Assembly: GCA_015056045.1 (NCBI GenBank)
Contig: SVGZ01000003.1
Coordinates: 62,001 to 126,000 of the forward strand
Length of the DNA: 64,000 nucleotides
Direction of reading: 5' to 3'
Origin: Clostridiales bacterium
GTDB taxonomy: Bacteria; Bacillota; Clostridia; Christensenellales; Christensenellaceae
This document shows, in pieces, positions 4,198 to 51,995 of the stretch (positions are counted from its first letter, which is position 1; each line of letters opens with the position of its first letter). The notes beneath the pieces were generated by a model, which did no database searches, was not told the origin of the DNA, and worked only from the letters and a program-made list of their open reading frames with translations. A program made the position numbers and the translations under genes.

Positions 4198-4205
4198 GTG
4201 CAAGT

Positions 4206-4676
4206 GGGCGAAAAATCTACGCCCCTACGGATATTTCTTTGTAATCGTTTTGCGATGTAATACGACAAGTTTTGCGAAGCAATACTCGCACACTCCAAGA
4301 GTGAGAGCCAAATAACAACGCCTCCCTTGTGCAAAGGGAGGTGGCTTTCGCATAGCGAAAGACGGAGGGATTGTTTAAAGCGATAAACAATAATGAGTAT
4401 TTCCTTTGGAAAACCCTCTCAGTCGGCTTTGCCGACAGCTCGCCGAGTTTTGCGAAGCAATACTCGAAGTTTTGCGAAGCAATACTCGAGGTTTTGCGTA
4501 GCAATACTCGCTCTGAGGGAGAGGCAAGCTTTATAGAAGCAATACTCGCTATCACTTATCATGCGCAAAGTGTGAAAGTCACAATCCCTCCACCGCAAGC
4601 GGTTCCCCTCCCTTTACACAAGGGAGGCATTTTTAAACTTGTTTGAATAAATTGGGCGCAGAAACCACGCCCCTAC
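4206..4676. repeat. Intergenic repeat island: REP-like hairpins, CCTCCCTT hairpin element, nested TTTTGCGAAGCAATACTCG inserts
   Basis: GGGCG...CGCCCCTAC at 4206-4228 and 4654-4676; cctcccttgtgcaaagggaggtggctttcgcatagcgaaagacggagggattgtt at 4321; three near-identical ttttgcg(aag/tag)caatactcg units at ~4445-4510. Confidence 0.85.
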
Positions 4677-4686
4677 GGTTACTTTT

Positions 4687-5463
4687 TCACCCTTCAAGAA
4701 GTCCGGCTGCACGAAGGTTGGCTAAAAGCGCATTGAACTGCGTGACGATGGTATCGACGGTGGCATCATCAACGGCAGCGGCAGGCGTTACAACACCTGC
4801 AGGACCTGTTGCGCCTGTAGGACCAACTTCGCCGGCAGGGCCTGTTGCACCTGTGGGTCCGATTTCTCCTGTAGGGCCTGTTGCGCCTGTCGGACCAATT
4901 TCACCCGCAGGACCTGTTGCGCCTGTGGGACCAACTTCACCAGCAGGACCCGTTGCACCTGTCGGACCAATTTCACCCGCAGGACCCGTTGCACCTGTTG
5001 GACCAATTTCACCCGCAGGACCCGTTGCACCTGCGGGACCTACTTCACCGGCAGGACCTGTTGCACCTGTGGGACCTACTTCACCGGCAGGACCCGTTGC
5101 GCCTGTAGGACCGATTTCGCCTGCAGGACCTGTTGCGCCTGTCGGTCCGATTTCGCCCGCAGGGCCTGTTGCGCCTGTGGGGCCAATTTCACCGGCAGGA
5201 CCTGTTGCGCCTGTCGGACCAATTTCACCGGCAGGACCCGTTGCACCTGTAGGTCCGATTTCTCCCGCAGGACCTGTTGCACCTGTCGGACCCATCTGAC
5301 CATTCATACCTGCAGGACCTGTCGGACCCATCTGTCCGTTCATACCCGCAGGACCAGTCGGACCCGTCGGACCCATCGGACCAACGATCAGACTGCAGCA
5401 AGGTGGTCTCTTATTTTGTCCACAGCAATTTCTGTTATTATCCTGATCAAAACATCTAGGCAT
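4687..5463 (-). CDS. Collagen-like (Gly-X-Y repeat) surface/exosporium-type protein
   Basis: [40 protein letters not shown]... then 14 x [11 protein letters not shown](I/V)-type units and tail [23 protein letters not shown]. Confidence 0.9.
4790..5293 (-). repeat. 36-bp coding tandem repeat (12-aa unit [12 protein letters not shown], about 14 units)
   Basis: Counted from the translated protein; units differ mainly at EI/EV and T/A positions. Confidence 0.85.
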
Positions 5464-9525: not shown

Positions 9526-9532
9526 TGGGTAA

Positions 9533-9830
9533 AACCCTCTCAGTCGGCTTTGCCGACAGCTCTCCCAGAGGGAGAGCCAAGTATTTACAATCCATTGTTC
9601 AATGATATGCCTCCCTTGTAAAAGGGAGGTGGCATGGCTTTGCCATGACGGAGGGATTGTTCTTCCATCAATAAAATAACGCATCAAGACATTTGTCATC
9701 GTGCAAAAAACCTCTCTGTGCAATGTTATAGAACCCTCTCAGTTGGCTTTAGCGACCAAGTTTTCACGAAGTGAATACGACAAGTTTTCACGAAGTGAAT
9801 ACTTGCTTTCCCAAAGAGAGCCAAGAATTT
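9533..9830. repeat. Intergenic repeat island (CCCTCTCAGTCGG and CCTCCCTT hairpin families; two 24-bp CAAGTTTTCACGAAGTGAATAC inserts)
   Basis: Same elements occur at 4410-4530, 25040-25100, 51599-51995. Confidence 0.8.
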
Positions 9831-10916: not shown

Positions 10917-11009
10917 AGCCTGTCCATCCTTTTTTCTTGATAAGTAAAGTTTAACAAAAAAGCATCCGCTTGGCAATAAAAAGACCCGCAAAATGCAGGT
11001 CCTTCTCTC

Positions 11010-11084
11010 TTATTTCTTCAATTTCTCCTTTAAAACCGCACCGATCGTTACGCTGCAGACGGGTTCGACATATTTTGCAAAAAG
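11010..11084 (-). pseudogene. Duplicated 3'-terminal fragment of the acyltransferase gene at 11848-12963
   Basis: Reads LFAKYVEPVCSVTIGAVLKEKLKK*, matching the C-terminus LFAKYVEPVCSVTIGAVLKERLKK* of the intact gene; followed on the minus strand by GGACCTGCATTTTGCGGGTCTTTTT. Confidence 0.85.
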
Positions 11085-11149
11085 TGTATTTGTTTCATTT
11101 ATTTTTAATTATTCGGATTAAATGATCTTTTCCCAGCGTTTTTGCATTT

Positions 11150-11683
11150 TCACTGTAGGGGCGTGGTTTCCGCGCCCGCTTTTTTCATATCGCTATATAA
11201 TCGATCCCATTTCCAACGCAAAGGGTTTTCTTCAATATAATTATAGATCTCATCATAATCATACTGATTGCGGATAATATGATCAAAAAAAGAACGCTGA
11301 AATACGCTTTGTCCTTGGCTGCTTCTTTTTTCGTTGATCTCCTTACTGCATTGATATTTCCACCATCCCATTATACTTGCGATCGAAGGTTTCCCTTTTT
11401 CTTCAATCAAACCGTCTGCGATCGTCAGCAGTAAATGAACATGATTCGGCATGATAACATAGTTATCAACAAAAACGCTCGTATACTTCTCGGGAAGCTC
11501 CAGTATCCATTTTTCAACGATCATACCATATTCCGTTAGCACTGCTTCTGCATTTTCTTCTGCAATAACGGAAAAGATGTTTTCTCTGTTTTGGGTGCAA
11601 ACAGTGATAAAATAGGCACCGTTTTTTCCGTAATTATAGTCTTTTAATCTCGGCGATTTTCGTTTTGATCGTATTTTTTCCAT
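11150..11683 (-). mobile_element. REP-associated tyrosine (Y1/HUH) transposase, RAYT family
   Basis: MPNHVHLLL HUH-type motif; NYVIMPNHVHLLLTI...DEIYNYIEENPLRW catalytic Tyr region; about 177 aa. Confidence 0.9.
11155..11177 (+). repeat. GTAG-preceded REP-like hairpin flanking the RAYT gene
   Basis: GTAGGGGCGTGGTTTCCGCGCCC. Confidence 0.8.
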
Positions 11684-11703
11684 TTTTATTCTTTAAGGTT
11701 TAC

Positions 11704-11726
11704 GGGAGGGGTAACCCCTCCCCTAC
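11704..11726 (-). repeat. GTAG-preceded REP-like hairpin flanking the RAYT gene (inverted orientation)
   Basis: gggaggggtaacccctcccctac; reverse complement GTAGGGGAGGGGTTACCCCTCCC. Confidence 0.8.
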
Positions 11727-11847
11727 GGATTCTACAATCTTTTCTCTGTAGGCGCGTGATATTCGCACCCATTTTAGTCATTATGCCATGTCCTTTGTTT
11801 CGGGAGAGGAAACCTTTCAAGACAGCTTCTTCATTCAATCCTCTCTC

Positions 11848-12963
11848 TTATTTCTTCAATCTTTCCTTCAAAACCGCGCCGATTGTTACGCTGCAGACGG
11901 GTTCGACATATTTTGCAAAAAGCCACGAAATGCCGAAGGTCATGAGAACCGAAACCGCAAACAGGATCCCATACATCGCGGTGTAATCCATCGTCCCATA
12001 AAGCGCGGTGAAAAGCACAGCCGCAAAGGAACAGATCACCGGCCAATGGAAGGCATAAACGCCGAAAGAAAGCCGACCAAGCCATGCCATCGGTTTCAGC
12101 CCGAGGAAAAGTTTGATCCACTTCGTCCCCATAAGGCAGATCAAAAGAAGCGCCGCATAGAAGGCTTTGAAATAGCCGTCGAGGACGAATTTACCCGAAA
12201 GATAGGCTTCAGGGCTGATCTTGGGCAAGAGCTGCATATGACCGCTGTGCACAAGCCAAAGAATGAGCACCGAGAGCACAGTGAAAAGGTAATTTAAGCC
12301 TTTGCCGTTTCTGACTTCACGGATGAACCAGCCGATGCCTGCGCCCAAAAGGCAGGCAAAGGTCACATAATGAATGAAAAATGCAGCAGCAGTCAGCACA
12401 AGGAAGACCACAAGGTGCAACTTCGGGAATTTTTCCATGAGAAAACTGCCGAGATAGGTCAAGAGCGAACCCAAAAGCATATACGAAAGCATCCAGAACG
12501 GACCGGAAAAACTGTCGTCCGCCATGAACCAGAGCTTGAAAAAGGGCGAAGTAAAAAGATCGAGCGCCGTATGCGGTGTGCTGTAATAACCGGCAAACCA
12601 GCTGTTGCCAAGCGTTCTGCCGGCTTCACCGTTATAAAAACCGAGCATTTTTTCGATCAGGAAAATGACAAGGCAGATGAAAAAGATCGGCAGCGAAAAA
12701 CGCAGGTATCGCCCGAGCGATTTTTTAACAAGTGCCGCAGGCGTTTTGATTGCGCTTTTTGCCGCCAAATAGCCGCTTATTACGCAGAAAATGCCGATCT
12801 GAAAATCGCCGTCCAAGAGGACTTTCAAAAGATCGGAGCCGAGATACGTCACCGTTTCCGATAATTGCGGGTTCATAAATGCGCCGTAAAAATGCGTCAG
12901 GAAAACGCCGATGCAGGCGATCGCTTTTAAGCCGTCGAGATAATTCTGCCGTTTATTTTCCAT
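11848..12963 (-). CDS. Acyltransferase 3 (OafA/YrhL-like) integral membrane protein
   Basis: MENKRQNYLDGLKAIACIGVFLTHFYGAFMN...; multiple TM segments. Confidence 0.9.
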   Translation of the reverse strand: MENKRQNYLDGLKAIACIGVFLTHFYGAFMNPQLSETVTYLGSDLLKVLLDGDFQIGIFCVISGYLAAKSAIKTPAALVKKSLGRYLRFSLPIFFICLVIFLIEKMLGFYNGEAGRTLGNSWFAGYYSTPHTALDLFTSPFFKLWFMADDSFSGPFWMLSYMLLGSLLTYLGSFLMEKFPKLHLVVFLVLTAAAFFIHYVTFACLLGAGIGWFIREVRNGKGLNYLFTVLSVLILWLVHSGHMQLLPKISPEAYLSGKFVLDGYFKAFYAALLLICLMGTKWIKLFLGLKPMAWLGRLSFGVYAFHWPVICSFAAVLFTALYGTMDYTAMYGILFAVSVLMTFGISWLFAKYVEPVCSVTIGAVLKERLKK

Positions 12964-20186: not shown

Positions 20187-20232
20187 ACAAACTGTTCCAA
20201 GGAGCTTGGCTCCGAGGACAGCCAAGTTTTGT

Positions 20233-20308
20233 GGGAGCATAGCTCAGCTGGGAGAGCATCTGCCTTACAAGCAGAGGGTCACAGGTTCGAGCCCTGTTGT
20301 TCCCACCA
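20233..20308 (+). tRNA. tRNA-Val(TAC)
   Basis: Full cloverleaf with encoded CCA; anticodon loop CTTACAA. Confidence 0.95.
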
Positions 20309-20317
20309 CGCAAAAGT

Positions 20318-20394
20318 GGCCCGGTAGTTCAGTTGGTTAGAACGCTAGCCTGTCACGCTAGAGGTCGAGGGTTCGAGCCCCTTCCGGGTCGCCA
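20318..20394 (+). tRNA. tRNA-Asp(GTC)
   Basis: GGCCCGGTAGTTCAGTTGGTTAGAACGCTAGCCTGTCACGC...CGCCA. Confidence 0.95.
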
Positions 20395-20414
20395 TTTTTT
20401 TGCGAATCACATAT

Positions 20415-20489
20415 GCGGGAGTGGCTCAGTGGTAGAGCGTTGCCTTGCCAAGGCAAATGTCGCGAGTTCGAATCTCGTCTTCCGCTCCA
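20415..20489 (+). tRNA. tRNA-Gly(GCC)
   Basis: GCGGGAGTGGCTCAGTGGTAGAGCGTTGCCTTGCCAAGG...TCCA. Confidence 0.95.
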
Positions 20490-20492
20490 TAT

Positions 20493-20567
20493 GGCGCCAT
20501 AGCCAAGTGGTAAGGCACAGGTCTGCAAAACCTCTATGCCCCGGTTCAAATCCGGGTGGCGCCTCCA
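20493..20567 (+). tRNA. tRNA-Cys(GCA)
   Basis: GGCGCCATAGCCAAGTGGTAAGGCACAGGTCTGCAAAACC...TCCA. Confidence 0.95.
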
Positions 20568-20569
20568 GA

Positions 20570-20602
20570 AAAAAGCCTCGTTCAAAAGAACGAGGTTTTT
20601 TC
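20570..20602 (+). terminator. Terminator of tRNA array 1
   Basis: AAAAAAGCCTCGTTCaaaaGAACGAGGTTTTTT. Confidence 0.9.
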
Positions 20603-20790
20603 AACTAAATTTGCCCTTATAGGCAAGTGAAATTCTGCTATCGCAGAGTGAAATTGCTTCGCAATGAAATATTCGCTGTCGCGAATGCTGGCAAATTTAA
20701 TTTCACATCGAACGCAGTGAGATATTTCATCATTCATAAAATGAATGATTTCACATTTGCCGCAAGGCAAATATTTCAATCTACTTTCAT
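20603..20790. repeat. Chain of short hairpins separated by GAAAT/ATTTC
   Basis: TTTGCCcttataGGCAAg tgaaat TCTGCtatcGCAGA gtgaaat TTGCttcGCAA tgaaat ATTCGCtgtcGCGAAT ... CATTCATaaaATGAATG atttca CATTTGCCgcaaGGCAAAT atttca. Confidence 0.85.
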
Positions 20791-21117
20791 GATAAATTTA
20801 TCTCCTCTGCGTACCCTTTCGTTATGGATATTTCTATGCGTCAGCATAGTGCTATTTTTAACTAAGTTTGCTCTTACGGGTAAGTCGCTTTTGCAGAGTC
20901 AAATTGCTTCGCAGCGGTAAATTCGCCTTACAAATACCGGCAGATTTTATTTCACACGAGGCTTACCAAAGATTTCTCCGGCGCAAAATGATTATGCAAG
21001 GCTTTCGCTAAACAGATCACATGATCGGCAGCCTGCTCTCTTTCATCGGCAAAAATACATCTGATTTCGGGATCTGGCTTTACCCGCCAAATATTTTCCA
21101 AAATTTATCAAAAATGT

Positions 21118-21146
21118 TTTGACAAAGTATGGGCCTTATGTTATAC
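21118..21146 (+). promoter_or_regulatory. Sigma-70 type promoter for tRNA array 2
   Basis: TTGACA-N17-TATACT. Confidence 0.88.
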
Positions 21147-21191
21147 TAAATCTCGTCCTGAGGGAAACCGAGGGATTTGCCAAGCTTTTGT

Positions 21192-21267
21192 GGGAGCATA
21201 GCTCAGCTGGGAGAGCATCTGCCTTACAAGCAGAGGGTCACAGGTTCGAGCCCTGTTGTTCCCACCA
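21192..21267 (+). tRNA. tRNA-Val(TAC), second copy
   Basis: Identical to 20233-20308. Confidence 0.95.
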
Positions 21268-21274
21268 CCAAAGT

Positions 21275-21351
21275 GGCCCGGTAGTTCAGTTGGTTAGAAC
21301 GCTAGCCTGTCACGCTAGAGGTCGAGGGTTCGAGCCCCTTCCGGGTCGCCA
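21275..21351 (+). tRNA. tRNA-Asp(GTC), second copy
   Basis: Identical to 20318-20394. Confidence 0.95.
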
Positions 21352-21375
21352 TTTTTTTACCCTAAAATAAAATAT

Positions 21376-21450
21376 GCGGGAGTGGCTCAGTGGTAGAGCG
21401 TTGCCTTGCCAAGGCAAATGTCGCGAGTTCGAATCTCGTCTTCCGCTCCA
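21376..21450 (+). tRNA. tRNA-Gly(GCC), second copy
   Basis: Identical to 20415-20489. Confidence 0.95.
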
Positions 21451-21451
21451 G

Positions 21452-21486
21452 AAAAAAGCCTCGTTCAGAAGAACGAGGTTTTTTTC
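21452..21486 (+). terminator. Terminator of tRNA array 2
   Basis: AAAAAAGCCTCGTTCagaaGAACGAGGTTTTTTT, near-copy of 20570-20602. Confidence 0.9.
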
Positions 21487-21487
21487 A

Positions 21488-21660
21488 ACTAAATTTGCCC
21501 TTATGGGCAAGTGAAATTCTGCTATCGCAGAGTGAAATTGCTTCGCAATGAAATATTTGCTTCGCAAATGTGGGCAAATTTAATTTCATATTTTGCTTTA
21601 GCAAAATATTTCACCAAAGGCACAGCCTTTGATTTCACCGCAAGCGTCAGCGAACGTTTT
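21488..21660. repeat. Second copy of the GAAAT-separated hairpin chain
   Basis: TTTGCCCttatGGGCAA, TCTGCtatcGCAGA, TTGCttcGCAA, ATTTGCttcGCAAAT, TATTTTGCtttaGCAAAATA, CAAAGGcacaGCCTTTG separated by tgaaat / atttca. Confidence 0.85.
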
Positions 21661-25130: not shown

Positions 25131-25430
25131 TCAAACTCACGATTTCAGGTTACTAAACCAAAGCCAACCAATCTCTAAAATTGAAAATCCGGTCAAGCAT
25201 TTGGCTGCCTTGTTTTTATCTTTTACAAGCAACCTTACGATTTCAGGTTACCAAACTGCAGACCATCAATCTCTGAAATTGAATAGTCGCGCATGCGAGT
25301 ATGCTTTGCAAACAAAAAAAGCGGTCGATCAATGATCGCCCCTACTTTTTCTTTTGTCATCAACCTCACGATTTCAGGTTACCAAACTGCAGACCATCAA
25401 TTTCTATCATTGAAAAGTCGCGCAGCGTTA
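25131..25430. repeat. Three direct copies of a ~60-bp motif (cacgatttcaggttaccaaactgcagaccatcaatctctgaaattga) plus a GTAG hairpin
   Basis: Units at about 25131-25186, 25229-25290, 25359-25424; gatcaatgatcgcccctac at 25326-25344. Confidence 0.85.
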
Positions 25431-29335: not shown

Positions 29336-29459
29336 AAGCTTCTCACCTCACATTCCTACATATATATATTTCTCCATCGGAGTCGGAAAATCCTCTTTTT
29401 TTCCTGAAAATTTGCCGGAAAATCTTAAAAAAATGAAGATGATTGCGTGAATACAGCAT

Positions 29460-29860
29460 TTCTTTATCGTCGAAGGAACAATCCCTCCGTCTTTCGCTAT
29501 GCGAAAGCCACCTCCCTTTCACAAGGGAGGCTTTTTTAACTTAGAAATCGATCATAAATCATAGCGAATAATACATTCGGGCGCGGAAACCACGCCCCTA
29601 CGGATGCTTCAAAGTTGACTCTAAAAACAGAAACTTGGCTCTCCCTCTGGTTGCTCATGTAATATAATTTGGATCGTAAAAGAACAATCCCTCCGTCAAA
29701 AATCAAAGATCCTTGACACCTCCGCCGAGTTTTGCGTCAGCAATACTCGCATTCACAAGGGAGGCATTATATTTGAAATCGTTTTGCGTCAGCAATACGC
29801 CGAGTTTTGCGTCAGCAATACGCCGAGTTTTGCGTCAGCAATACTCGCTATCACTTAAAA
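29460..29860. repeat. Intergenic repeat island (reverse-oriented composite element plus nested GAGTTTTGCGTCAGCAATACTCG units)
   Basis: 29479-29601 is the reverse complement of the composite at 42896-43100; second hairpin element at 29680-29770 carries an internal insert. Confidence 0.85.
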
Positions 29861-31394: not shown

Positions 31395-31740
31395 TCATAA
31401 GGGTTTCCGCGCCCGAATGAATTTATCGCTATGATTTGCGATTGATTTTCAAGTTTTAAAAATATAAAGCCTCCCTTGTGAAAGGGAGGTGGCTTTCGCA
31501 TAGCGAAAGACGGAGGGATTGTTCCTTCGACAATAAAGAGATTCAAACAATCCCTCAGTCATATTTGCAAACGAAACACTGCGGGCGATCAATGATCGCC
31601 CCTACAATTTTAATCAGATTGTTTTTCTGCTCTTTTTCCAAGTGAATTATCTTTTTCTCCGTAGGGGCGTGGTTTCCGCGCCCGTTTAATCCTTACCCTA
31701 TGTTATTAATTTCGGGAGGGGTAACCCCCCCTACAGTCTG
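31395..31740 (+). repeat. Composite intergenic repeat with GTAG hairpins
   Basis: Shared order with 42896-43290: cgcggtttcc-hairpin, CCTCCCTT element, 'gttccttcgacaataaagagattcaaacaatccctcag', 'gcgatcaatgatcgcccctac'. Confidence 0.88.
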
Positions 31741-35849: not shown

Positions 35850-35929
35850 AAAACTCCTTTCATGCCTTTTTTCCCGGCATAGCTTTTGTTATATACAGCA
35901 TAACAGAGCTTTTCGCTGCACAGTCCGTG

Positions 35930-36190
35930 AAGTTTCGGCACTTCGTACGCCGAACTTCCCAAAGTTCTAACCTTCGCGCTTACCGCTTGCGCGATATGCT
36001 TCGCATACCGGTTAAAACTTTCCAGTTAATCTGTTGAAAGATAGTAAGAGTTTCGTCACTTTGTACGCCGAACTTCCAATTATCCTGTTAATAGAAAGTA
36101 AAAGTTTCGGCACTTCGTATGCCGAACTTCCCCAGTTATTCTGTTGAAAGATAGTAAGAATTTCAGCACTTCGTACGCCGAACTTCCCTC
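35930..36190. repeat. ~55-bp repeats with GTTCGGC...GCCGAAC hairpin (4 copies)
   Basis: ctgttgaaagatagtaagagtttcg(g/t)cacttcgtacgccgaacttcc at ~36031, 36085, 36141, plus a partial at ~35931; related copies at 51382-51575. Confidence 0.85.
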
Positions 36191-42821: not shown

Positions 42822-42895
42822 GAACAAACAAATATAAAAGACACGGCGTTTTTGGCGCTGTGTCTTATTTTTATCCATAAAATTATATTCTCTCC

Positions 42896-43290
42896 GTAGA
42901 GGCGTGGTTTCCGCGCCCGAATGTATTGATCGCTATGATTTATGATCGATTTCTAAGTTAAAAAAGCCTCCCTTGTAAAGGCGAGTATTCGCTCCGTGAA
43001 AACTTGACGTATTGCTGACGCAAAACGATTCAAATATAATGCCTCCCTTGTGTAAAGGGAGGTGTCAAAAATCTTTGATTTTTGACGGAGGGATTGTTCC
43101 TTCGACAATAAAGAGATTCAAACAATCCCTCAGCCATATTTGCAAACAAAACACTGCAGGCGATCAATGATCGCCCCTACAATTTATAAAAGGTCATTGC
43201 ATTAAAAAAGTTCCTGTCGCTTCGTCTTTTCTGTTCTTTTTTCAAGTGAATTATATTCTCGTGGTTTCCGCGCCCTTTCATTCAAACAAA
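42896..43290 (+). repeat. Composite intergenic repeat, copy with internal insertion
   Basis: Same order of blocks as 31395-31740; extra ~70 bp 'gcgagtattcgctccgtgaaaacttgacgtattgctgacgcaaaacgattcaaatataat' splits the CCTCCCTT element. Confidence 0.85.
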
Positions 43291-51381: not shown

Positions 51382-51995
51382 GAAGTTCGGCACTCCGTAC
51401 GCCGAACTTCCTGAAGTATTTTCTTTTTCCGCATACGGGCGGAAAAGATTTCTTCAAAATCACGAAAATACTTCCTGGTTTGTGTGTTGGAATATAGTAA
51501 AAATTTCGGCACTCCGTACGCCGAACTTCCCAAGTAATTCTGTTGGAATATAGTAAAAGTTTCGGCACTTTGCACGTACATGGTTCTTTGTTGAAAAAGC
51601 CCTCTCCGTCGGCTTTGCCGACAGCTCTCCCAGAGGGAGAGCCAAGATTCTTCATAAATGCTGAAACATTGCGAAGTATATTTGCATGATCGTCATTTCG
51701 ATTTGTAACAGGCTTATTAAGAAAAACTTGAGTTCCGCACGCAATAAAAGCCTCCCTTGTGTAAAGGGAGGTGGCAAAAATCTTTGATTTTTGACGGAGG
51801 GATTGTTCTATCGGTTTTATAGAAGATTTCAAAAAGCCCTCTCAGTCGCATTCTGCGGCCAAGTTTTGCGACAAGAACACTTGCCTCTCCCTTTGGGAGA
51901 GGTGTCCGAGTGCAACGAGGACGGAGAGGGTTTTCGCACATAAAGCGCCCTTAATATCTGTGATAAAAGCCCTCTCAGTCGCATTCTGCGGCCAA
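51382..51995. repeat. Repeat island between clpX and lon (GTTCGGC hairpins, CCTCCCTT and CCCTCTCAGTC families)
   Basis: gaagttcggcactccgtacgccgaacttc x2; ccctctccgtcggctttgccgacagctctcccagagggagagccaag; gcctcccttgtgtaaagggaggtggcaaaaatctttgatttttgacggagggattgttc. Confidence 0.85.

Follow-up and report, generated by a model that had tools for sequence, protein, structure and literature searches.

A Clostridia RAYT gene with GTAG hairpins and its probable place in TnpAREP subclass 2.4

A RAYT gene flanked by inverted GTAG hairpins

The window, a 64,000-nt stretch of DNA from a Clostridiales bacterium, carries a gene for a 177-aa HuH/Y1 protein (Table 1). This protein is a RAYT (TnpAREP). Its open reading frame is intact and contains the two segments named in an earlier note made from the sequence, MPNHVHLLL and YNYIEENPLRW; the HuH and Tyr motifs (NHVH and YIEENP) are invariant in relatives. 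The protein scores 74.4 bits (E = 8e-21) against the NCBIfam profile NF047646 (REP_Tyr_transpos, REP-associated tyrosine transposase), just under the curated cut-off of 80, and 32.6 bits against Pfam Y1_Tnp. It has the Y1 fold in common with the TnpA of IS200/IS605, but the match to the corresponding profile (NF033573) is weak, at 21.6 bits for a cut-off of 55. The sole sequence match in the PDB is 4ER8, a TnpAREP, in which a RAYT is seen in complex with a REP hairpin. The same entry also ranks first (E = 2.6e-7) among the fold matches of a structure model that was built from three sequences and has a modest mean pLDDT of 67.7; the fold alignment shows 22% identity. In this model, the third strand (80-87) is predicted to bear HuH and helix 139-155 the Tyr.

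Two hairpins with a GTAG foot lie at the ends of the gene, inverted relative to each other. The first, GTAG[GGGCGTGG(TTT)CCGCGCCC], has its T.G pair in the GGGCGTGG stem and is the 3' repeat that had been said to encode AGAETTPLQ: it does specify the final codons of the RAYT and this C-terminus. The second, predicted as a reverse-oriented element on the 5' side, is found 20 bp upstream of the start codon and differs from the first in its stem (GGGAGGGG versus GGGCGTGG). When folded as single-stranded DNA, both do better than shuffled sequences (z = -2.65 and -2.69, respectively). REP stems open with three G-C pairs adjoining GTAG. A third, degenerate copy had been proposed at 11748. The tetranucleotide is present there, but the sequence folds no better than its shuffled versions (z = -0.39) and is absent from the matches of the REP covariance model; having GTAG without a stable hairpin, it is at most a decayed REP. 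At a scan score of at least 14, the window contains six GTAG hairpins, as opposed to 0-2 in 10 shuffled windows.

The window gene lacks both of the internal REPs that are common in its relatives (see below) and has REPs at its ends instead, only the one at the extreme 3' end falling within the reading frame. In addition, alignment with 4ER8 places a phenylalanine (FQ for WQ) at the position of W94 of E. coli TnpAREP, which is otherwise well conserved according to PMC6006769. In view of these two features, the activity of the protein may be reduced or altered. Together with the decay of one REP copy and the presence of a single RAYT copy in the genome, they also lend weight to the view that the RAYT survives only as a remnant, dead or domesticated, with REPs left over from earlier activity. 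We consider this rather unlikely, since the frame is intact, the HuH and Tyr motifs are conserved and six exact copies of the type a REP suggest recent spread.

Table 1. Features of the window (positions counted from its first nucleotide)
Feature	Position	Strand	Evidence or remark
RAYT / TnpAREP gene	11150..11683	-	177 aa; HuH (NHVH) and catalytic-Tyr motif (YIEENP); profile and PDB 4ER8 matches
REP type a, GTAG + 8-bp stem, 3-nt loop, one T.G pair	11155..11177	+	Hairpin scan; REP model 33.1 bits; ssDNA folding
REP type b, GTAG[GGGAGGGG(TTA)CCCCTCCC]	11704..11726	-	Hairpin scan; REP model 31.7 bits; ssDNA folding
Decayed REP-like sequence, GTAG without stable hairpin	11748..11770	+	Folding z -0.39; not listed by REP model
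Left copy of 81-bp direct repeat: duplicated acyltransferase 3' end	11004..11084		88% identical over residues 346-371
Right copy of 81-bp direct repeat: 3' end of intact acyltransferase gene 11848-12963 (-)	11842..11922		
Apparent inserted unit, 757 bp, with RAYT and REPs	11085..11841		Inferred from bracketing direct repeat
Short REP pair of 74 bp: type a (+) followed by type-b-like (-)	31661..31734		Hairpin scan; folding
REP type c, GTAG[GGGCGATC(ATT)GATCGCCC]	31583..31605	-	REP model 35.9 bits
REP type a	29579..29601	-	REP model
REP type a variant	4654..4676	-	REP model
REP with degenerate stem	4206..4228	-	REP model
REP type c variant	25323..25345	-	REP model
REP type a variant	42896..42918	+	REP model
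REP type c variant	43158..43180	-	REP model

A direct repeat around the RAYT unit

The RAYT unit is bracketed by two copies of an 81-bp direct repeat, 94% identical to each other. Because the repeat is host gene sequence, the 757 bp between the copies look like an insertion, as suggested by the occurrence of the acyltransferase 3' end on both sides. Seven of 23 RAYTs lie between direct repeats 36 nt or longer, but no such repeats flank any of 515 control segments from the same loci (Fisher 1e-10). Besides the window, the loci concerned are L003, L132, L133, L139, L140 and L148, the repeats ranging from 36 to 131 nt, and in at least four of these six (L003, L132, L133 and L140) the repeat itself includes REP sequence.

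The copy of the neighbouring gene's end and the excess of long repeats at RAYTs could both be taken to mean that the whole RAYT unit is mobile and that, in contrast to the REPtrons described so far, its insertion duplicates long stretches of target. This appears improbable to us. With REPs inside the repeat at those four or more loci, recombination or tandem REP units can account for it; the length of the duplication varies; and target duplication by HuH single-stranded DNA transposition is not known. As to the RAYT together with its REPs, types a and b are found again, in unchanged order and without an intervening gene, in the short pair of Table 1, whose left flank is 81% like that of the RAYT unit. 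The RAYT thus sits within what is, at this other site, a short inverted REP pair.

REP copies in the genome

A covariance model of the REP was run over the 2.07-Mb genome, a draft with a completeness of 79.7%, and matches were accepted at E 0.012 or better. The genome-wide count of GTAG hairpins for which the earlier note had called comes to about 25, falling into several stem types. Precisely, 25 places were found, 19 of them on the 142-kb contig of the window, which makes up 6.9% of the assembly (binomial p = 9e-18). Type a is represented by six exact copies and, within three mismatches, by 12 copies confined to this contig. Near-identical 23-mers recur with an invariant GTAG foot, and the stems co-vary, changing in pairs while GTAGGG stays constant (the sequences had been selected as hairpins). 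Thirteen of the 14 REPs in the window are intergenic, though 87% of the window consists of open reading frames.

Such crowding of REPs on one contig would also be seen if the contig were a mis-binned piece from another REP-rich organism, in which case the genome-wide counts would be nearly meaningless. We hold this to be very unlikely: GC content and tetranucleotide usage agree with those of the other contigs, the only homologue of the neighbouring acyltransferase among 17 relatives comes from the same genus, and REPs are found on contigs C12, C18 and C23 as well. Mis-binning was rejected as unsupported by composition or by the acyltransferase homologue.

REPs and RAYTs across the order

The survey covered 396 genomes of the order, all drafts and partly incomplete. 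A RAYT was called at E below 1e-6, and genomes with at least 10 matches to the REP model were scored as REP-rich, the number of matches per genome being capped near 20. By these measures, 25 genomes have a RAYT and 27 are REP-rich. REP-rich genomes account for 18 of the 25 with a RAYT (72%) versus 9 of the 371 without (2.4%); the Fisher p of 3e-19 is only indicative, since some of the REPs used to build the model came from the vicinity of RAYTs, a bias towards association, and since the genomes are related by descent and not all complete. Equal abundance of GTAG hairpins in relatives without a RAYT had been named as evidence against a REP/RAYT system; the two groups differ instead. The linkage between REP abundance and RAYT presence is strong but not absolute, as nine genomes are REP-rich with no RAYT detected (G029, G038, G097, G135, G263, G319, G332, G364 and G366). 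These fit RAYT loss or incomplete assemblies; alternatively, their REPs might have been moved by something else.

Homologues of the window RAYT are flanked by REPs or contain them. RAYTs are few in the family, and the sole other genome of the genus examined has neither a RAYT nor REP richness.

A REP pair inside the RAYT genes of relatives

The most interesting by-product of the analysis is a regular pair of REPs inside the RAYT genes of relatives. Of the 88 distinct full-length RAYTs compared within the class, 78 contain at least one in-frame REP; both fixed sites are occupied in 57, the second alone in 18, the first alone in 3 and neither in 10. The two REPs flank the HuH codons in opposite orientation. 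The first lies some 40 codons ahead of HuH, on the coding strand, where it is translated in frame to Val-Gly (GTA GGN). The second is on the opposite strand, in most genes about 13-24 codons past HuH. In the structure model of the window protein, these sites map to predicted loops at about residues 38-46 and 88-99. No GTAG hairpins were found elsewhere within the open reading frames of the 88 RAYTs.

The arrangement is apparent with no selection for hairpins: 63 of 87 genes have GTAGG at the first site and 75 of 87 have it at the second, compared to 2 and 4 for the other strand. Of these sites, 58 and 73, respectively, form hairpins, versus 3% and 6% of shuffles. Moreover, the two stems within one gene match, with a mean arm identity of 0.94, whereas the mean for permuted pairings is 0.58 and at most 0.65 in 2000 permutations. 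A total of 31 arm types is found among 56 RAYT genes. With so many stem types, each accompanied by its own transposase, the co-evolution of protein and REP becomes directly testable, and the cognate REP of such a RAYT can be predicted simply from the RAYT gene itself.

PMC6006769 already documents REPs inserted in frame into genes of subclass 2.4, as a rule between the HuH and Tyr motifs, along with an 8-aa insertion elsewhere, which may correspond to the first in-gene REP site. Whereas insertions between HuH and Tyr are the general case in the main text of that paper, the relatives in the present survey typically have two fixed sites whose stems match. A fixed, oppositely oriented REP pair with matched stems was not found in the texts consulted; supplementary Figure S10 of that paper may show part of it.

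The two-REP arrangement is seen in the RAYT reading frames of L002, L131, L134-L136, L138, L142 and L158-L226.

A rule whereby external REPs would always be oriented as the internal ones was also considered and discarded: the nearest 5' REP is in plus orientation in 11 cases and minus in 6, and the nearest 3' REP is split 4 to 4. With this rule unsupported, the plus/minus arrangement in the window proves little by itself.

Were the GTAG hairpins no more than common intrinsic terminators, or mRNA hairpins close to gene ends, that happen to neighbour a transposase, their intergenic location and GC richness would fit, but this simple reading is rejected as extremely improbable on account of the recurring 23-mers with their invariant GTAG foot, the paired stem changes beside a constant GTAGGG (in sequences chosen as hairpins), the in-frame sites within RAYT genes, a senseless place for a terminator, and a REP abundance predicted by RAYT presence.

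Gene remnants

Two gene remnants look like products of REP-to-REP deletion. In L155 (3037-3341), the inter-REP segment is gone and the junction reads GTAC, as if GTAG-to-CTAC had been removed with one TA kept. In L228 (343-604), half of each hairpin is left and the halves are fused as one GTAG...CTAC hairpin, a double-foot form proposed in PMC6006769 to arise via central deletion. Both junctions fit either excision made by the enzyme or slippage on inverted repeats. RAYT-catalysed excision as an established fact was rejected: other remnants have other junctions, REP-to-REP only in part in L149 and not so in L227, L229 and L230, and polymerase slippage on inverted repeats could give like products.

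We envisaged that the two fixed in-frame REPs could turn the HuH-coding segment into a REP-bounded, excisable unit. By carrying the cognate substrate in its own gene, the enzyme would be kept matched to its REP and could shut down its own activity through excision. On this view the window gene would be a derived form, with the pair enclosing the gene in its entirety. This proposal is speculative, and we rate it as unlikely.

Assignment to a known family and proposed mechanism

As a whole, the window system is best explained, with high probability, as a REPtron made of a RAYT of TnpAREP subclass 2.4 (RAYT group 4) and its cognate REPs. The fit to this subclass follows from the motifs, the REP type and the lack of a C-terminal extension. 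The motifs tabulated in PMC6006769 are NH[IFV]H, WQ and YIxNNP; NHVH of the window protein matches the first, FQ replaces the second and YIEENP is close to the third. Three G-C pairs at the GTAG foot, in-frame REPs within relatives' genes and occurrence in scattered phyla are further likenesses to the subclass as presented in that paper, and so is the C-terminus: the protein stops soon after the core, its tail is partly REP-encoded and it has no conserved extension. The window gene departs from the subclass in its F for the W of WQ and in having no internal REP.

The E. coli REPtron (PDB 4ER8, subclass 2.2) likewise combines the HuH/Y1 fold with GTAG hairpins flanking the gene, but has longer, bulged REP stems and a protein with a C-terminal extension (PMC6006769). 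The REPINs of Pseudomonas and their group 3 RAYT (PMC3116915) are similar in that inverted REP pairs of about 70-80 bp lie between genes; however, their copies are far more numerous than the approximately 25 found here and the protein belongs to a different subclass. Since RAYTs of subclass 2.4 and such REPs were already described across several phyla (Quentin 2018, PMC6006769), the window system is not unprecedented but is a Clostridia member of a known RAYT/REP family. The earlier note's picture of a REPtron with several stem types in a Clostridia-type genome agrees with the protein, the hairpin anatomy, the genome-wide copies and the co-occurrence with RAYTs. It places an intact REP/RAYT system in a group thinly covered in the REP literature consulted.

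TnpAREP of E. coli binds single-stranded REPs at GTAG, cleaves them through its Tyr and carries out strand transfer (PMC8266576, PMC3733652). By analogy, we infer the same three activities for the window RAYT. It would most likely bind GTAG hairpins where the lagging-strand template is left single-stranded; its Tyr would then cut near the foot of the hairpin, and REPs or inverted REP pairs would in this way be copied or moved into intergenic sites of the same genome.

Other repeats on the window contig

Repeats unrelated to the REPs are likewise concentrated on the window contig, so the clustering of REPs there need not stem from the RAYT. Islands of mosaic repeats, composed of different palindromic units (of the CTCCCTTGT...AGGGATTGTT type), several of them joined to GTAG REPs, are concentrated on this contig and occur in the window at 4200-4690, 9530-9690, 29450-29860, 31400-31740, 42860-43290 and 51590-51900. 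A second hairpin family (TTTCGGCACTTCGTACGCCGAACTTCC), which lacks the GTAG foot, forms short arrays at 35904-36187 and 51386-51586. The window also includes a tandem array with an 18/36-bp period (4681-5436) and a tRNA cluster that is tandemly duplicated with a period of about 960 bp (20227-21588).
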